A stretch of 64,000 bases of DNA from Oceaniglobus indicus (GTDB lineage: Bacteria; Pseudomonadota; Alphaproteobacteria; Rhodobacterales; Rhodobacteraceae): the NCBI RefSeq assembly GCF_002751875.1, contig NZ_NMZM01000002.1, positions 372,001 to 436,000 on the forward strand, given 5' to 3'. The translations under genes were made by a program, and so were the position numbers. The notes below the pieces were generated by a model. It worked only from the letters and a program-made list of their open reading frames with translations, was not told the origin of the DNA and did no database searches. Below are positions 27,630-55,256 of this stretch, piece by piece. Numbering within the stretch: position 1 is the first letter of the stretch; every line of letters starts with the position of its first letter.

Positions 27630-28617
27630 CGTCTGGACCGGTTTCCGCCTCGAATCCCAGGGTTTTGGGATCGAATTCGTAATGCGCGCCGCAGAACTGA
27701 CAGTCGGCGGTCACAATTCCGTCGTCGGTGGTCATATGCGCGATGTCCTTCGCGGAATAGATCGACAGGCTCTGACGCACCTTGTCGGCGGAACAGCCGC
27801 AGCCGAACTTGACGGGTTGCGGGGTGAACACGCGCGGCTGTTCCTCGTGAAACAGGCGCACCAGAAGCTCGGTCGGCTGAACGCTCGGGCCGACAAGCTC
27901 AAGATCATCGACCGTATCCAGAAGGGTATTGGCGCGCAGCCAGTTTTCGGCTTCATCCTCATCCAGAATGTCGTCGGCTTCCAGCAACCCCTGTTCGCCC
28001 GACCCGCCTTCCGAAATGGCCGGCGACGCCTTGGGCATATGTTGCAGCATGATCCCGCCCGCGCGCCAGCTTTCGTCGCCGCCCGGCACCGAATTGCGCC
28101 CGAAGGTCAGCGCGAACCGCGTCGGAAGCTGTTCGGACTGGGCGAAATACGTCTGCGCACAGGCCGTCACGGAATCACCGGCAATGGGCGTGATCCCCTG
28201 GTAAGGCGTGGTGCCCTGCCCCTGGTCCAGCAGAACGGCGAAATATCCCTTGCCGATCATGTCGAACGCCGACTGGTCAGGGTCCAGCCGATCGGCGTCG
28301 AAACTGGCCCACGCACGGATCCGCGCCGGCTTGCCATCATCGCTTGGCGCGTAATAATCGGTGGCGATCAGGCGCACGGGTCCGTCGCCGCGCACCTGCA
28401 ACGACAGCTTCCAGCGCAGCTTGACCGTCTGGCCGATCATTGCGGTCAGAACCGCCATCTCGGCGACCAGTGCTTCGACCTGTGGCGGGTAATCGTGCTG
28501 GCCGAGCACGTGGTCAAGCACGCCGTCAAGACGCGCAATCCGCCCGCGGATGTCACTTCGGTCAAGCTGAAACGGCAGGACGGTATCGTCCCAGGCGATG
28601 GTAGAGCCAATAGTCAT
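27616..28617 (-). CDS. hslO: Redox-regulated chaperone Hsp33
   Basis: A 333-aa holdase chaperone switched on by oxidative unfolding. The C-terminal zinc site is GCGCSADKV and DCQFCGAHYEF (CxC ... CxxC), with the linker between them. The N-terminal substrate-binding domain contains TVKLRWKLSLQVRGDGPVR. It is the first gene of the hslO-nudL-cca run and diverges from the Nudix gene at 28701 across an 83-bp gap that should hold both promoters. Confidence 0.96.
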   Translation of the reverse strand: MTIGSTIAWDDTVLPFQLDRSDIRGRIARLDGVLDHVLGQHDYPPQVEALVAEMAVLTAMIGQTVKLRWKLSLQVRGDGPVRLIATDYYAPSDDGKPARIRAWASFDADRLDPDQSAFDMIGKGYFAVLLDQGQGTTPYQGITPIAGDSVTACAQTYFAQSEQLPTRFALTFGRNSVPGGDESWRAGGIMLQHMPKASPAISEGGSGEQGLLEADDILDEDEAENWLRANTLLDTVDDLELVGPSVQPTELLVRLFHEEQPRVFTPQPVKFGCGCSADKVRQSLSIYSAKDIAHMTTDDGIVTADCQFCGAHYEFDPKTLGFEAETGPDDAVS

Positions 28618-41250: not shown

Positions 41251-42162
41251 TTACTCCCGGGTGAGCCGCGACGAAAGCAGCCGGCAAATTTCATCCAGAT
41301 CCTCAAGGGATCCATAGTTGATCGAGAGCTTGCCGTTCCCCGACTCTGACGCGTGATCAATCGAAACGGTCATGCCAAGGGTTTCAGACAGATCCAATTC
41401 CAGCGCCTTGGTATCGGCGTCCTTTTCAACCTTTGTCGGCGATGGTTTCTTTTTCGGCGCTTCCGTCTGCCCTTTGGCCAAAGCTTCGGTTTGCCGGACG
41501 GACAGACCTTTTTCAATCACGATCTGGGCCAGTTGCGACGGGTTTTCTGCGGTGATCAGGGCGCGGGCATGCCCGGCGGAAATCTTGCCCGACCGCAGGT
41601 GATCCAGAACGTCCTCGGGCAATGACAGAAGCCGCAAGAGGTTAGCGATATGGCTTCTGCTTTTGCCCAGGGCTTCGGCCAGTTTTTCCTGAGTGTGGCC
41701 GAAACGATCCATCAACTGGCGAAAGCCCGATGCCTCTTCCACGGGATTGAGATCGGCACGCTGAATGTTCTCGATGATCGCGATCTCGAGAACTTCGAGA
41801 TCGTTCATATCGCGGATGATCGCCGGCAGCTCGTGCAACTGCGCCATCTGCGCCGCCCGCCAGCGCCGTTCCCCGGCAACGATCTGGAACATCCCTTCGG
41901 CCGTCGGATCCCGGCGCAGGATCAAGGGCTGAATGACGCCCTTGGTTCGAATCGACGCGGCGAGTTCGTCCAGGTTCTCGTTCGAGAAGCGACGCCGAGG
42001 CTGATCAGGATTCGGCCTGATCTGTTCAATCGGAATAAACTGATCAGCCGGCCGATGCGCTTTCTCGGGATCGCGTCCGGGCCGATCATCGACGCCGACA
42101 TCTGCCATAAGCGCGGACAAGCCACGGCCCAGCCCGCGACGCTCGTGCTTTTTATCGACCAT
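41251..42162 (-). CDS. parB: Chromosome-partitioning protein ParB
   Basis: A 303-aa CTP-dependent clamp that loads at parS and spreads to segregate the origin. The N-terminal ParA-contact region is RRGLGRGLSALMADVG. The catalytic/CTP domain includes QPRRRFSNENLDELAASI and GERRWRAAQMA. The HTH is at ...FGHTQEKLAEALGKSRSHIANLLRLL, and the C-terminal dimer domain follows. ATG 42162 has AGGGA 6 nt upstream; ATG 42168 would overlap the parA stop by 4 nt. Two parS sites lie 1.4 and 3.3 kb upstream. Confidence 0.97.
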   Translation of the reverse strand: MVDKKHERRGLGRGLSALMADVGVDDRPGRDPEKAHRPADQFIPIEQIRPNPDQPRRRFSNENLDELAASIRTKGVIQPLILRRDPTAEGMFQIVAGERRWRAAQMAQLHELPAIIRDMNDLEVLEIAIIENIQRADLNPVEEASGFRQLMDRFGHTQEKLAEALGKSRSHIANLLRLLSLPEDVLDHLRSGKISAGHARALITAENPSQLAQIVIEKGLSVRQTEALAKGQTEAPKKKPSPTKVEKDADTKALELDLSETLGMTVSIDHASESGNGKLSINYGSLEDLDEICRLLSSRLTRE

Positions 42163-42164
42163 TT

Positions 42165-42983
42165 TCATTCCCTACTCTGTGCCACCACACCGTGGCGGGT
42201 TACCAATTCCTGTGCCAAGGCACGATAAGCATGACTTCCTTTTGACGTCTCGTCATAAGACAAGACGGACTGCGCATATGATGGCGCTTCACTTACCCGA
42301 ACATTTCGCGGAATCACCGTCTTGAACACCAGTTCACCAAGGGTTTCGCGCGCATCATTCTCAACCTGCTGCGCCAGACGGTTGCGACCATCATACATCG
42401 TCAGCACCACGCCTTCTATCCTGAGTTCCGGGTTGGCCGACTGGCGAACCTCGCGCACTGTCAGCATCAACTGCGACAACCCTTCCAACGCGAAGAACTC
42501 GCTCTGCAGCGGAACCAAGACCGAATGTGCCGCCACCATGGCGTTGACGGTCAGGAGACTGAGCGACGGCGGACAATCGATCAGGATATAATCGAAGGCA
42601 TACCGGTCGATGGCCGCGTGCCGCAGCGCATCGTGCAGAAGATAACTCCGCTTTTCGTTCGAGATCATCTCGATGTCCGCCGAACTCAGATCCGTAGTTG
42701 CCGGCGCGATCCACAGGCCGTCGGTCGCTGTGGGCGACAGAACATCGACTAAAAGCGCATCATCCAACAGCAGGTCATAGGTCGTCAGCGTTCGGTTGGA
42801 AACCTCGATACCCAGACCCGTCGACGCGTTACCCTGTGGATCCAGGTCGATGATCAGGACGTTGAAGCCGTCCTCGGACAAAGCTGCACCCAAATTGATC
42901 GCGGTCGTCGTCTTACCGACGCCCCCCTTCTGGTTCACGATCGCAATGATACGGGGGTCGGACGTTCTGGCAAGATCAACCAC
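42165..42983 (-). CDS. parA: Chromosome-partitioning ATPase ParA (Soj-type)
   Basis: A 272-aa Walker-type ATPase driving ParB-parS separation. The deviant Walker A KGGVGKTT is at 19-26, Walker A' is LIIDLDPQGNASTG, and Walker B is DYILIDCPPSL. There is no N-terminal DNA-binding extension, so this is the chromosomal (type Ib-like) form. It overlaps rsmG by 8 nt upstream and touches parB downstream, giving the conserved order rsmG-parA-parB. Confidence 0.97.
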   Translation of the reverse strand: MVDLARTSDPRIIAIVNQKGGVGKTTTAINLGAALSEDGFNVLIIDLDPQGNASTGLGIEVSNRTLTTYDLLLDDALLVDVLSPTATDGLWIAPATTDLSSADIEMISNEKRSYLLHDALRHAAIDRYAFDYILIDCPPSLSLLTVNAMVAAHSVLVPLQSEFFALEGLSQLMLTVREVRQSANPELRIEGVVLTMYDGRNRLAQQVENDARETLGELVFKTVIPRNVRVSEAPSYAQSVLSYDETSKGSHAYRALAQELVTRHGVVAQSRE

Positions 42984-43602
42984 GAGAAAGGTTCCTGATT
43001 ACGAGAATACGCGCATCGGCTTCGGTTGCGCTTGGATAGCTCTGAACCTCGAAGTTCCAGGCGTTCCGCGCGGCGTCAATTTCATTCTGGTACTCGGCAC
43101 CTTTCGGAAAGACCATGATCGTGTTCGCGTTCGTGAAGCCATGACACATGGAAAACAGCTTTTCCAAGCTTGCCAGCGCGCGCGCCGAGATGACATCAAA
43201 GACCTGCGCGGGAATGCGATCAACGCGCTCGGATACGATTTCGGGCGCAACATCACACAGCCGCGCCACTGAACGCAGGAAAGCGCACTTGCGTTGATCG
43301 CTTTCGACCAGGGTAAACGTCAGCTCCGGACGCATCTCGGCCGCCATCAACGCAAGCACCATACCGGGAAATCCCGCGCCGCTGCCCATATCCAGCCAGC
43401 GGGCGGGACCGCTGGGATAGAATCTCGCCAGTTGTGCCGAGTCTTTGAAATGCCGCTCCCAGATATCGACCTCACTGGCGCGAGAAATTAGGTTTATCGC
43501 AGAGTTCCACCGTAGAACTTCATCGCGATATCTTTCCAGATTATCCAATGTTTCACGTGAAACATTGGACAGCTGGCTGGATGCCGTATTTTGGTTATTC
43601 AT
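42976..43602 (-). CDS. rsmG: 16S rRNA (guanine-N7)-methyltransferase RsmG
   Basis: A 208-aa methyltransferase for N7 of G527 in 16S rRNA; loss gives low-level streptomycin resistance. Motifs are LDMGSGAGFPGMVLA (SAM), LVESDQRKCAFLR and VISARALASLEKL. Residues 14-18 (VSRET) are encoded by a perfect parS site, so the N-terminal sequence is partly fixed by DNA-level selection. It starts 1 bp after the mnmG stop. Confidence 0.96.
   Translation of the reverse strand: MNNQNTASSQLSNVSRETLDNLERYRDEVLRWNSAINLISRASEVDIWERHFKDSAQLARFYPSGPARWLDMGSGAGFPGMVLALMAAEMRPELTFTLVESDQRKCAFLRSVARLCDVAPEIVSERVDRIPAQVFDVISARALASLEKLFSMCHGFTNANTIMVFPKGAEYQNEIDAARNAWNFEVQSYPSATEADARILVIRNLSRG
43544..43569. other. parS site 1 (within rsmG)
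   Basis: The core TGTTTCACGTGAAACA (43549-43564) is a perfect ParB recognition sequence. Here it extends to a 26-bp perfect palindrome (outer arms TCCAA / TTGGA). It is located about 560 bp upstream of the parA start, inside the rsmG coding sequence. Confidence 0.95.
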
Positions 43603-43603
43603 T

Positions 43604-45481
43604 TCAGGCAGACTTGCTCATCGCGTGCTTGCGAACTGCGGCCAACACCAGGGACAGCGCTGATGGCGTCATTCCGTCGATCCGCCCTGCCTGCCCCAAG
43701 GACGTCGGTGCAACACGCTGCAGCTTTGCGCGAAGTTCGTTAGACAGGCCGCGCACCGCTTCATAGTCCAAGGTTGCCGGTATCTCGACTGCCTCATCCT
43801 TCCGCAGGTTCTCTACATCCCGCGCTTGACGCGCGGTGTAAACCGAATAGAGAGCATCGTTTGCGACTTGCGTGAAAACTTCCTCGTCGATATCCGCGCA
43901 TGCCGGATCCAAAGCAAAGATCTGTTCGCGTGAAATCGAGGAATTTGACAACAGATCATAGGTTGATTTACGTCGGCCGTCGGAAGAAGCAGAAAGCCCG
44001 GTGGCCGCCAAGTCCTTGGCGCCCCATGTATCTGCTCTCAACTTAGCTTCTACCTGATCCAACTGCTCCCGTTTCTCGGAAAAACGGGCATAGCGCCCCT
44101 CACCCACGCATCCCAACCGATGCCCGAAGGCTGTGAGTCTCTGATCCGCATTATCCGCCCTCAGCATCAACCGGAACTCGGCCCGCGATGTGAACATGCG
44201 ATAGGGTTCGATCACCCCCCTGGTCGTCAAATCATCGATCATGACACCGATATAGCTCTCCGACCGGTCAAATACGACGGGTTCCTGTTCCTTGCAGAGA
44301 GCGGCGGCGTTGATTCCAGCCACCAACCCCTGCGCCGCGGCTTCCTCATACCCCGTGGTGCCATTAATCTGACCAGCCAAGTACAACCCGTCAAACCCCC
44401 GAACCGATAGTGTTCGACCCAACGCGCGCGGGTCGACGAAGTCGTATTCGATTGCATAACCGGGCTGAAGGAAACGAGCGTTCTCAAGGCCTACGATCGA
44501 GTGAACATACTCAACCTGGCTGTCCACCGGCAAGGATGTGGAAATCCCGTTCGGATAAACCGTGTCGTCGTCCAATCCCTCGGGTTCCAAGAATATCTGG
44601 TGCGAAGTCTTATCAGCAAACCGCATCACCTTGTCTTCGATTGACGGGCAATACCGGGGACCAACCCCATCGATGTGCCCACCGTACATCGCCGACATTT
44701 GAAGATCCCGGCGAATGACCTCGTGGGTCTTCTCGTTGGTGTGCGTAATACCACAGCTAACCTGCCGCAACATTGGCGCCTTGTGCAGGAACGAAAACAT
44801 CGACGGCGTGTCGTCGCCCGGTTGCATTTCCAACGCCGCCCAATCAATCGTACGCCCGTCCAGGCGCGGTGGTGTTCCGGTTTTCAACCGTCCCAACGGT
44901 AGGTCCATATCGCTGAACCGTTTCGCCAGAAGGTTCGATGCCCCCTCACCCATCCGGCCGCCTTCATGGCGTTTGTCACCGATGTGAATCACACCCCGCA
45001 GGAACGTTCCGGTCGTCACAATCACGCAGCGCGATGTGATGTCCGACCCGTCCGCCAGCTTCACACCACCGGCATGGGTGCCACGAAAGATGAGGTCAGC
45101 CACTTCCGCTTCGACCAGGTCAAGGTTGTCCGACCCAGACACCGCGTCGAACACCGCCTGCTTGTAAACCTTGCGGTCCGCTTGCGCGCGCGGACCTTGC
45201 ACTGCTGGACCTTTGCGACGGTTGAGCAGTCGAAATTGAATTCCGGCCTTATCAGCCGCGACGCCCATGATGCCATCCAAGGCATCGACCTCACGGACCA
45301 GATGCCCCTTCCCCAGGCCACCAATCGCGGGGTTGCACGACATCGCGCCAATCTCATTAAGTTTCATTGTGACCAGCGCAGTGCGGACCCCCATACGTGC
45401 AGATGCATGGGCGGCTTCCACGCCGGCATGGCCACCGCCGATAACTACGACGTCGTAGTCAAATTGTTTCACGTGAAACAT
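43604..45481 (-). CDS. mnmG: tRNA uridine 5-carboxymethylaminomethyl modification enzyme MnmG (GidA)
   Basis: A 625-aa FAD protein that, with MnmE, modifies U34 of some tRNAs. The FAD site is [13 protein letters not shown] near residue 10. Other motifs are [34 protein letters not shown] and the catalytic Cys-containing CPSIEDK region. The first codons (MFHVK) are written by a parS site that begins at the start codon. It lies 3 bp after mnmE and 1 bp before rsmG. Confidence 0.98.
45465..45480. other. parS site 2 (mnmG start codon)
   Basis: TGTTTCACGTGAAACA, a perfect ParB site whose minus-strand reading overlaps the mnmG initiation region and encodes FHVKQ. It is 1.9 kb from parS site 1 and about 3.4 kb from the proposed origin. 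Confidence 0.95.
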
Positions 45482-48180: not shown

Positions 48181-48633
48181 TCAGAAAGGGCGCGCGATCA
48201 CCGAGACGACAATCAGGATCAACAGCAGTGTCGGCACCTCGTTCATTGCCCGAAAATACCGGCCCGAGCGTTGATTGACACCAGCGGCGATGTTCTTGCG
48301 CTGTCGGGCGCACCACATGTGAAACACGCTCATCCCGATGACGGAAAGCGCCTTGATCCAAGGCCAGCCCGCGCTCCAGTCGATCAGGCCCGGGATACTG
48401 ACAAGCATCAGACCGAAGATCCAGCTGGCGACCATGGCCGGGGTCATGATCACCTTCAACAGCTTGGTTTCCATCATCTGGAACAGCGCATCGGTTTCAC
48501 TGTCCGGCGCCACCTGTTCGACGTGATGCACAAAAAGCCGGGGAAGATAGAAGATCCCTGCCATCCAGGCGATGACCGAGATGACATGCAGGGATTTGAT
48601 CCAAAGATAGCTCGTGATCAAAATGTCGGTCAT
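48181..48633 (-). CDS. hemJ: Protoporphyrinogen IX oxidase HemJ
   Basis: A 150-aa membrane enzyme of heme synthesis, used in place of HemG/HemY. There are four hydrophobic helices. The conserved His is in LWIKSLHVISVIAWMAGIF, with LPRLFVHHVE and a late WCARQRKN basic loop, as in the family. It works just before ferrochelatase, which is encoded 31 kb away in this window. It is the first gene left of the origin gap, with its start codon at the gap edge. Confidence 0.93.
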   Translation of the reverse strand: MTDILITSYLWIKSLHVISVIAWMAGIFYLPRLFVHHVEQVAPDSETDALFQMMETKLLKVIMTPAMVASWIFGLMLVSIPGLIDWSAGWPWIKALSVIGMSVFHMWCARQRKNIAAGVNQRSGRYFRAMNEVPTLLLILIVVSVIARPF

Positions 48634-48654
48634 GGCGGTTCCTCGGGATCCCCT

Positions 48655-48700
48655 CTTACTCTCTTAAATAAAAGAGAAAGAAAAGATGATGATGTAAGTA
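48655..48700. other. AT-rich segment, candidate DNA unwinding element
   Basis: The lowest-GC stretch noticed in the region, including CTCTTAAATAAAAGAG followed by purine-rich AAAGAAAAGATGATGATG. It lies between the hemJ start and the DnaA-box group. Confidence 0.55.
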
Positions 48701-48738
48701 GGTCGGGGCATAACGTGGATCAAACGATGCACACAGGC

Positions 48739-48747
48739 TTGTCCACG
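48739..48747 (+). promoter_or_regulatory. DnaA-box-like 9-mer TTGTCCACG
   Basis: Matches TTATCCACA at 7 of 9 positions. The same 9-mer occurs on the opposite strand at 48916-48924, which argues against chance. Confidence 0.5.
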
Positions 48748-48759
48748 CTTTCGTCCGCC

Positions 48760-48768
48760 TGTGCATAA
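48760..48768 (-). promoter_or_regulatory. DnaA box TTATGCACA
   Basis: A perfect match to the general DnaA consensus TTWTNCACA, minus strand, 60-100 bp right of the AT-rich element. Confidence 0.7.
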
Positions 48769-48908
48769 CTTTGAGGGCAGGATGGGTCGAGATATGAAAA
48801 TCTCCGGCTATTCAGGGGTTTAAAGTATCCATTCCGTAGACAATCCTGTGCATGGTATGCTGGATATGTCGGGCGTCTCCGGTTCCTCCACCGCATCCAT
48901 CGGGATCA

Positions 48909-48924
48909 TGTCCACCGTGGACAA
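48909..48924. promoter_or_regulatory. Paired DnaA-like half sites TGTCCAC-C-GTGGACA
   Basis: Two inverted TGTCCAC arms with a single base between them; extended by one base on the right this also contains the second copy of TTGTCCACG (minus strand, 48916-48924). It could be a head-to-head DnaA site or the operator of another origin-binding protein. Confidence 0.5.
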
Positions 48925-49017
48925 AAGTGCGTGGAAGTCTGATCGAGAGTGTGAATACTGGCGTTTCGACCGAAAACCGCATGATCGCCCCGCTTGTGCC
49001 CACGGTCATGCCCCCAG

Positions 49018-49026
49018 TTATCCACC
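49018..49026 (+). promoter_or_regulatory. DnaA box TTATCCACC
   Basis: Eight of nine positions match TTATCCACA. It lies 11 bp upstream of the maf start codon at the right edge of the origin gap. Confidence 0.65.
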
Positions 49027-49037
49027 GAGGAATACCC

Positions 49038-49637
49038 ATGGCCCATGACCTTGTGCTGGCGTCCGGCTCTGCCATCCGGGCACAGCTGCTTCGCAATGTC
49101 GGTTTGAACATCGATGTGCGACCGGCCCGCATTGACGAAAACGCCCTGCGCCGCGCGTTGCAACAGGATGGCGCGACGCCGCGGGACGTCGCCGATGCGC
49201 TTGCCGAGCACAAGGCGCGAAAGATCGCTGGCAAGCTTGATGGCGGTCTGGTTCTGGGGTGTGATCAGATCCTGGTCGCAGATGGCCAGATCCTGTCCAA
49301 GCCGCAGGATCCCGATGATGCGTGTCAGCAACTGTCGCGCCTTTCCGGACAACGGCACAAACTGCTGTCGGCGGCCGTTCTGTATGATGATGCGCGTCCC
49401 GTGTGGCGCCATGTCGGCGTGGTCACGCTGACGATGCGGGATCTTTCGGATGCCTTCATTGCGGATTACGTTGCCCGCAATTGGGACAGCATCCGTCATG
49501 CGGTCGGTGCCTACAAGCTCGAAGAAGAAGGCGCGCGCCTGTTTACCGCCATTGATGGCGATCACTTCAACGTTCTTGGTTTGCCGCTGCTGGAACTCTT
49601 GTCCTATCTCACACTTAAGGGCATTTTGACGACATGA
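49038..49637 (+). CDS. maf: Maf-like nucleoside triphosphate pyrophosphatase
   Basis: A 199-aa protein of the Maf/Ham1-like superfamily that hydrolyses non-canonical or modified NTPs. It shows LVLASGSAIRAQLLRNVG at the start, LGCDQILV (catalytic Asp) and the C-terminal GAYKLEEEGARLF. The ATG at 49038 has GAGG 7 nt upstream; the longer open frame would run through the DnaA box. It is the first gene of maf-aroE-coaE-dnaQ; aroE overlaps its stop by 4 nt. Confidence 0.94.
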   Translation: MAHDLVLASGSAIRAQLLRNVGLNIDVRPARIDENALRRALQQDGATPRDVADALAEHKARKIAGKLDGGLVLGCDQILVADGQILSKPQDPDDACQQLSRLSGQRHKLLSAAVLYDDARPVWRHVGVVTLTMRDLSDAFIADYVARNWDSIRHAVGAYKLEEEGARLFTAIDGDHFNVLGLPLLELLSYLTLKGILTT

Positions 49638-54662: not shown

Positions 54663-55256
54663 GTGGTGCGCCGCAAGGAACCCCGCCGTCTGAGCGCCGA
54701 GGAACAGGATCTGTGGTATCGTGTCGTCGGCAAGACGACGCGCCGCCCGACCCGGCCGGAAGCGGCCCCTCTTGCGGAAACCGTGCCGCCCAAGGCGGTT
54801 CAGCCCCGACCGCCGATCGCCCCGTTCCAGATCGGTGAACGCAACCGCGATGCACCATCGCCCGCCAGATCGGTGCCGGCGATGGTGCAACGTCCGGCGC
54901 AACAGCCGGTGGCGATGGACCACAAGGCGTTCACCCGAATGAAGCGTGGAAAGCTCTCGGTCGAGGGGCGCATCGATCTGCACGGGATGACGTTGGACCA
55001 GGCGCATCCGCGGCTGACGGGGTTCATCATGTCGGCCCATGCCGCGGGCAAGCGGCTGGTGCTGGTGATCACCGGCAAGGGCAAGCGGCGCGACGATTAC
55101 GGACCGATGCCGGTGCGCCAGGGGATCCTCAAGCATCAGGTGCCGATCTGGCTGCGTTCCCCGATGCTGGGGCCCATCGTCCTGCAGGTCAGCGAGGCGC
55201 ACCAGAGCCATGGCGGCTCAGGCGCCTTTTACGTCTACCTGCGGCGCAATCGGTAA
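54663..55256 (+). CDS. Smr-domain protein
   Basis: A 197-aa GTG-started protein. A basic, Pro-rich N-terminal half leads to an Smr domain (from about residue 95): RIDLHGMTLDQAHPRL, LVLVITGKGKR and the closing HGGSGAFYVYLRR. Smr domains are nicking or RNA-cleaving nucleases, best known at the MutS2 C-terminus; stand-alone forms have been linked to ribosome rescue. The gene is 2 bp after mltA. Its last 39 bp overlap the convergent MFS gene. Confidence 0.9.
   Translation: MVRRKEPRRLSAEEQDLWYRVVGKTTRRPTRPEAAPLAETVPPKAVQPRPPIAPFQIGERNRDAPSPARSVPAMVQRPAQQPVAMDHKAFTRMKRGKLSVEGRIDLHGMTLDQAHPRLTGFIMSAHAAGKRLVLVITGKGKRRDDYGPMPVRQGILKHQVPIWLRSPMLGPIVLQVSEAHQSHGGSGAFYVYLRRNR

Follow-up and report, generated by a model that had tools for sequence, protein, structure and literature searches.

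The gap between hemJ and maf in Oceaniglobus indicus as a probable chromosomal origin of replication with a conserved unwinding block

The gene-free gap between hemJ and maf (positions 48634–49037) is, judging from its sequence, almost certainly the chromosomal origin of replication (oriC) of Oceaniglobus indicus, and its mode of action is most likely that of a standard DnaA-type origin. Positions refer to the analyzed window of 64,000 nucleotides, which corresponds to bases 372001–436000 of contig C16 (538,585 bases, 15% of the genome) in a 3.67-Mb draft genome of 26 contigs. The location and anatomy of the origin are supported by computation, and the binding of DnaA and IHF, the order of unwinding, helicase loading and the action of ParB we infer by analogy with known origins. 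The first-pass annotation had named the gap as the likely oriC; this call was strengthened by the skew minimum, density of DnaA boxes, duplex instability, parS sites, synteny with a conserved block, and skew in relatives. Here we add that the gap contains a conserved unwinding block and that the boundary genes described for Caulobacter do not flank it. The assignment fixes the origin and the replichores of the genome and yields a 404-bp fragment for direct testing.

The gap and its neighbourhood

The main features of the locus are as follows.

41251–42168, minus strand: parB (Pfam)
42165–42983, minus strand: parA (Pfam)
43549–43564: perfect parS site in rsmG (genome search)
45465–45480: perfect parS site at the start of mnmG (genome search)
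48181–48633, minus strand: hemJ (UPF0093; Pfam), left flank, start at 48633
48634–49037: predicted oriC, gene-free gap of 404 bases between hemJ and maf (skew, box density, synteny)
49038–49637, plus strand: maf (Pfam), right flank, start at 49038

The boundaries and divergent flanks described earlier were reproduced, hemJ (minus strand) reaching to 48633 and maf (plus strand) beginning at 49038. According to the list of open reading frames, the seven genes to the left of the gap (hemJ, rho, mnmE, mnmG, rsmG, parA and parB) are all oriented leftwards, and maf, aroE, coaE and dnaQ, the four on its right, are oriented rightwards. All eleven are thus directed away from the gap, in agreement with the earlier statement that the genes beside the origin read with the fork. 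Pfam families agreed with the gene names for ten of these 11 flanking proteins, those that were submitted; the remaining gene we take to be mnmG.

The gap had also been described as the only gene-free one over 300 bp. This stands as far as checked, on the basis of a crude greedy layout of open reading frames and inspection. The layout left five other gaps of more than 300 bases in the window; the hemJ–maf gap itself was not among them, since an open maf frame extends upstream as far as 48852. Inspection found credible open reading frames inside four of the five, and the fifth (54859–55217) falls within an open reading frame at 54663–55256.

The open upstream part of the maf frame (48852–49037) begins with an ATG at 48852 and gives an open reading frame of 261 aa, so automatic annotation could place the start of maf inside oriC. 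The closest in-frame stop of the window lies 198 bases from the maf start; in 66 of the 81 gaps compared below, such a stop is found within 186 bases.

The segment 40001–50000, which includes rho, mnmE, mnmG, rsmG and parAB, has a GC content of 0.57–0.585, compared with mostly 0.61–0.66 elsewhere in the window. Scans of the whole window for tRNA genes and Rfam families found nothing. No second copy of 48640–48760 was detected in the genome, where chance matches of 14–17 bases were the only ones. A DNA search with 48600–49100 gave matches in five of 41 genomes, its own included, and outside its own genome these were stretches of 37–65 bases only.

As for the relatives, the best 80 of 344 HemJ-encoding stretches were compared, and all 80 were used; the nearest by HemJ are named as Rhodobacteraceae/Paracoccaceae. 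Each of these 80 has a gap bordered by hemJ on one side and a divergent maf on the other. Together with that of the window, the 81 gaps have a length of 373–458 bases and a mean G+C content of 48%.

DnaA boxes and the unwinding block

The following elements were located inside the gap.

48655–48702: AT-rich DNA unwinding element, DUE (computed duplex stability)
48685–48693, plus strand: candidate DnaA-trio repeat GATGATGAT, three 3'-TAG-5' units, with a fourth trio AAA at 48682–48684
48705–48713, minus strand: trio-proximal DnaA box TTATGCCCC, 7/9 to TTATNCACA, spacer of 11 bases
48714–48722, minus strand: tandem DnaA box TGATCCACG, 7/9
48725–48733, plus strand: DnaA box CGATGCACA, 7/9
48739–48747, plus strand: DnaA box TTGTCCACG, 7/9
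48760–48768, minus strand: perfect DnaA box TTATGCACA
48810–48822, plus strand: IHF-like site, two mismatches to WATCAANNNNTTR, in a column conserved in relatives
48847–48855, minus strand: DnaA box CCATGCACA, 7/9, close to ctgtggataa in the consensus of relatives
48916–48924, minus strand: DnaA box TTGTCCACG, 7/9
48950–48958, minus strand: DnaA box GTATTCACA, 8/9
48994–49002, plus strand: DnaA box TTGTGCCCA, 7/9
49018–49026, plus strand: right-end DnaA box TTATCCACC, 8/9

The perfect box on the minus strand and the 8/9 box adjoining maf on the plus strand were found where the first-pass annotation had placed them, its "several" 7/9 boxes amount to seven, and the 8/9 box at 48950–48958 had been overlooked. 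The gap thus contains one, three and ten boxes at zero, at most one and at most two mismatches, whereas 1000 dinucleotide shuffles of its sequence gave 0.02, 0.29 and 3.1 on average; the observed counts were reached in 16, one and none of the shuffles, respectively. Nowhere else in the contig does a 400-base stretch hold three boxes at one mismatch or fewer, or ten at two or fewer, and the cluster is therefore denser than chance by both the shuffles and the contig scan. Over the whole 64-kb window, no excess of boxes at one mismatch or fewer was detected (12 against 13.3 expected); the significant feature is the clustering in the gap, not the number over the window.

The 81 gaps together hold 30, 266 and 777 boxes at the same three thresholds, against shuffle means of 1.1, 26.4 and 292.9 (60 rounds). 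A perfect box is absent from 55 of them and a box with at most one mismatch from three. The 10-base bin of the right-end box (49018–49026) has the most boxes at this latter threshold across the 81 gaps, namely 49.

The AT-rich block reported at 48655–48700 was recovered in the calculation of duplex stability, which shows the easily unwound element of a DnaA-type origin. The least stable 40 bp begin at 48661 and the least stable 50 bp at 48652, and no stretch of either length in the 538,585 bases of the contig is less stable than this block; at 60 bp, one other contig region is. On the minus strand, the tandem DnaA boxes are followed by a spacer of 11 bases, three ATC triplets and one TTT triplet, and finally the AT-rich block. 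The conserved block at 48655–48722, overlooked earlier, resembles the published unwinding module of DnaA box and DnaA-trios.

In the alignment of the 81 gaps, the best conserved part is this block, with the consensus AAAGATGATGTT.TTGTAGGGCCTGTGGATAA.GGGGATTA. A profile of it was built from the 80 relatives with the row of the window excluded, although the window was in the alignment. This profile scored 47.4 bits at 48672–48723, rank 1 of 1,077,068 contig positions, compared with 3.4 bits at the best unrelated place. Among the gap parts profiled, only the DUE/trio block singles out its own site in the contig. The profiles of three other parts fail to do so, the own-site ranks among about 1.08 million being 102 for the IHF-like column, 19 for the right-end box block and 521 for 48843–48857. 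Across the 80 loci, the lead of the best block match over the second was at least 1.2 bits, with a median of 32.3. In deeper relatives the profile is weak: in 14 loci with COG1806 (L113–L126), its best scores range from -5.8 to 40.4 bits and reach at least 20 bits in five. As the unwinding block is the best conserved part of the gaps, the alignment opens the DnaA-trio model to testing in Alphaproteobacteria; the available text of the DnaA-trio study names no alphaproteobacterium among the further species assayed (PMC8287927).

According to the same text, the basal unwinding system (BUS) consists of a DnaA box, a spacer with a peak length of 10–13, and DnaA-trios, and the rule for its detection is a box with at most two mismatches within 16 bases of at least three 3'-NAN-5' trios (PMC8287927). 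With the box TTATNCACA, the rule picks out the window and 72 of the 81 gaps, and also 193 of 405 shuffles, so that the rule alone is loose. When at least two CTA or ATC triplets were added to it, 39 of the 81 gaps and eight of the 405 shuffles remained. With the published box TTATCCACA, the corresponding numbers were 65 of 81 and 89 of 405, and the window fails by one base: its proximal box has two or fewer mismatches against TTATNCACA only and three against TTATCCACA. The pattern GTAGGNCNGTGGA is one base short of the consensus, and its count was left out. No description of DnaA-trios in Rhodobacteraceae was found among the literature titles and abstracts searched.

Strand composition, parS sites and alternative explanations

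Cumulative skew, named earlier as a check, was computed on the contig carrying the gap (15% of the genome). The GC-skew minimum of the contig is at 48006, in rho, 628 bases to the left of the gap, and the keto-skew minimum is at 48684, inside the gap. Starting at the left contig end, the cumulative G−C curve drops until 48006 and then shows a weak and uneven rise; to the right of the gap, skew per 10 kb ranges from -0.016 to 0.062 and is negative at contig positions 470–490 and 530–538 kb. Within the 16-kb loci L064 and L065, skew was uninformative.

In addition, skew was sampled in stretches of two complete chromosomes of relatives. In CP023454.1, with the gap near 50 kb and the opposite point near 1.76 Mb, it was positive in 18 of 20 stretches from the gap to the opposite point, and 18 of the 20 remaining stretches were negative (36 of 40 as expected). 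In CP051232.1 (gap near 1.793 Mb, opposite point near 4.13 Mb), the expected sign was obtained in seven of nine and nine of 11 stretches, 16 of 20 in total. In both chromosomes, the sign is wrong in the stretch directly to the right of the predicted origin (85–105 kb and 1860–1880 kb, respectively), and in CP051232.1 also in the slightly positive one (0.0025) directly to the left of it. The switch in strand composition of a DnaA-type origin is thus seen at the site in the contig itself and in the two relatives sampled.

The parS sites and parAB of a DnaA-type origin lie nearby as well. The two perfect parS sites listed above are the only ones in the 3.67-Mb genome, 3.2 and 5.1 kb from the gap. 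CP023454.1 and CP051232.1 each have two parS sites at one mismatch or fewer, all perfect and 3–6 kb from the hemJ–maf gap. A parS-like site with two mismatches was also noted at 27839–27854 (C16:399839), about 21 kb to the left of the gap; by its sequence, it is possibly a third ParB site.

These data bear on two explanations that place the origin outside the gap. The gap could be only the divergent promoter region of hemJ and maf, with the origin elsewhere, for example at dnaA; its flanking genes are divergent, so that promoters are expected in it too, and dnaA lies on another contig, C4. However, a promoter region is not expected to mark the skew minimum of the contig or to be its densest cluster of DnaA boxes, conserved in relatives, and the segment C4:1–16000 around dnaA lacks perfect boxes and contains no more than five boxes at two or fewer mismatches per 400 bp. 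We regard this explanation as highly improbable. An origin near the gap and outside it, such as in the parAB–mnmG–rho region, would agree with the GC-skew minimum in rho and with the GC skew of the window, whose lowest values fall at 42–48 kb. The keto minimum inside the gap, the box count that no other 400-base contig stretch matches, and the conserved DUE block in the gap argue against such a location so strongly that it deserves next to no credence.

A further explanation accepts the origin and supposes that it is silenced by CtrA through TTAA-N7-TTAA sites, as in the Cori of Caulobacter. Perfect CtrA sites occur in ten of the 81 gaps, ten sites in all against a shuffle mean of 0.9, and five of these sites (in L028, L038, L068, L071 and L080) fall on the IHF-like column, at window position 48809. 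This column, with the sequence TCAA-N4-TTA, is that of the IHF-like site near 48810, a site overlooked earlier; the column lies about 100 bases to the right of the DUE/trio block, and its bases C, A, T and T are conserved in 75, 77, 69 and 76 of 81 gaps. The IHF consensus is matched there with at most two mismatches in 68 of 81 gaps and perfectly in seven; the window has exactly two, and its gap has no IHF site at one mismatch or fewer. The gap of the window likewise contains no CtrA site at one mismatch or fewer and one at two or fewer, equal to the shuffle mean of 0.99. At the IHF-like column, it has three mismatches to TTAA-N7-TTAA, though one to the loose TTWW-N7-TTWW. CtrA control of the Caulobacter style is not supported for the window by this search and is unlikely. 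That CtrA sites coincide with the IHF-like column in just a few of the relatives (the five named) suggests that CtrA control of the origin was gained or lost.

GANTC (the CcrM site) occurs 91 times in the 81 gaps against a shuffle mean of 145.6. Its density is 2.75 per kb in the gaps and, taken over all 80 loci, 1.92 per kb; ten of these loci have 1.61 per kb, compared with 5.07 after shuffling. A special depletion of the gaps was therefore rejected, since GANTC is under-represented across the loci too. The window has 1.84 GANTC per kb against 5.02 in one shuffle, and none in its own gap.

The origin between hemJ and maf is an ordinary, well-formed chromosomal origin. By analogy with known origins, DnaA would occupy the box cluster from 48705 to 49026, and a bend at the IHF-like site near 48810–48822 may bring the right-hand DnaA complex round towards the left. 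DnaA would then spread leftwards from the tandem boxes (48705–48722) along one strand over the GAT repeats and open the AT-rich block at 48655–48702, where the helicase would be loaded in both directions. ParB at the two parS sites, 3.2–5.1 kb to the left, would then segregate the new origin. Tentatively, the origins of Rhodobacteraceae may share a variant of the BUS whose trio track is a GAT repeat (3'-TAG-5'), with a conserved GTAGG spacer between this track and the DnaA box. In Oceaniglobus indicus, the box that begins the track may have become weak by decay. Unwinding would then rely on the second box of the tandem and on delivery, aided by IHF, from the boxes to the right, and control by CtrA may have been lost at this site but retained by some relatives at the IHF-like column.

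Comparison with known origins

The likeness to the BUS consists in the tandem boxes, the 11-base spacer and four consecutive 3'-NAN-5' trios towards the AT-rich block, and the difference is the degenerate box beside the GAT repeats, by which the strict published box rule is missed by one base (PMC8287927). As for the family, the oriCs of 101 Rhodobacteraceae strains have already been predicted with Ori-Finder, using DnaA boxes, the GC-disparity minimum, the local GC minimum and nearness to parAB, according to the available text (PMC6699656). The hemJ–maf gap fits these criteria. For strains that include Cereibacter sphaeroides 2.4.1 and Paracoccus species, a marker-frequency analysis has been reported (PMC13342612).

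The Cori of Caulobacter crescentus is described, in the text available, as bounded by hemE and COG1806 (RP001) and as containing DnaA boxes, an AT-rich region of ~40 bp, an IHF site and CtrA sites TTAA-N7-TTAA, with overlap of CtrA and IHF sites (PMC1914354). The gap shares with it the DnaA boxes and the AT-rich region of roughly 40 bp, and has a candidate IHF-like site; the CtrA/IHF overlap is echoed by the gaps of five relatives and not by the window (PMC1914354). Neither the boundary genes nor the CtrA sites of Cori (at one mismatch or fewer) were found at the gap. The earlier comparison with Caulobacter was thus borne out in part: hemE is at C16:118709–119725, some 301 kb away from the origin, and the search detected COG1806 (PF03618) neither in the genome itself nor in five others of its genus, one of them only 75% complete. 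On the COG1806 side of its origin, Caulobacter presumably carries maf, aroE, coaE and dnaQ, as the first-pass annotation had also held.

COG1806 is present in 14 of the 61 genomes searched, and 12 of these 14 loci also have a maf match, L114 and L125 being those without. In two genomes of the family of the window (L124 and L126), the order is hemJ, gap, COG1806, maf, which links the Caulobacter arrangement with the hemJ–gap–maf arrangement. Because of these two loci, the most economical explanation for the present position of maf next to the origin would be a loss of COG1806 there.
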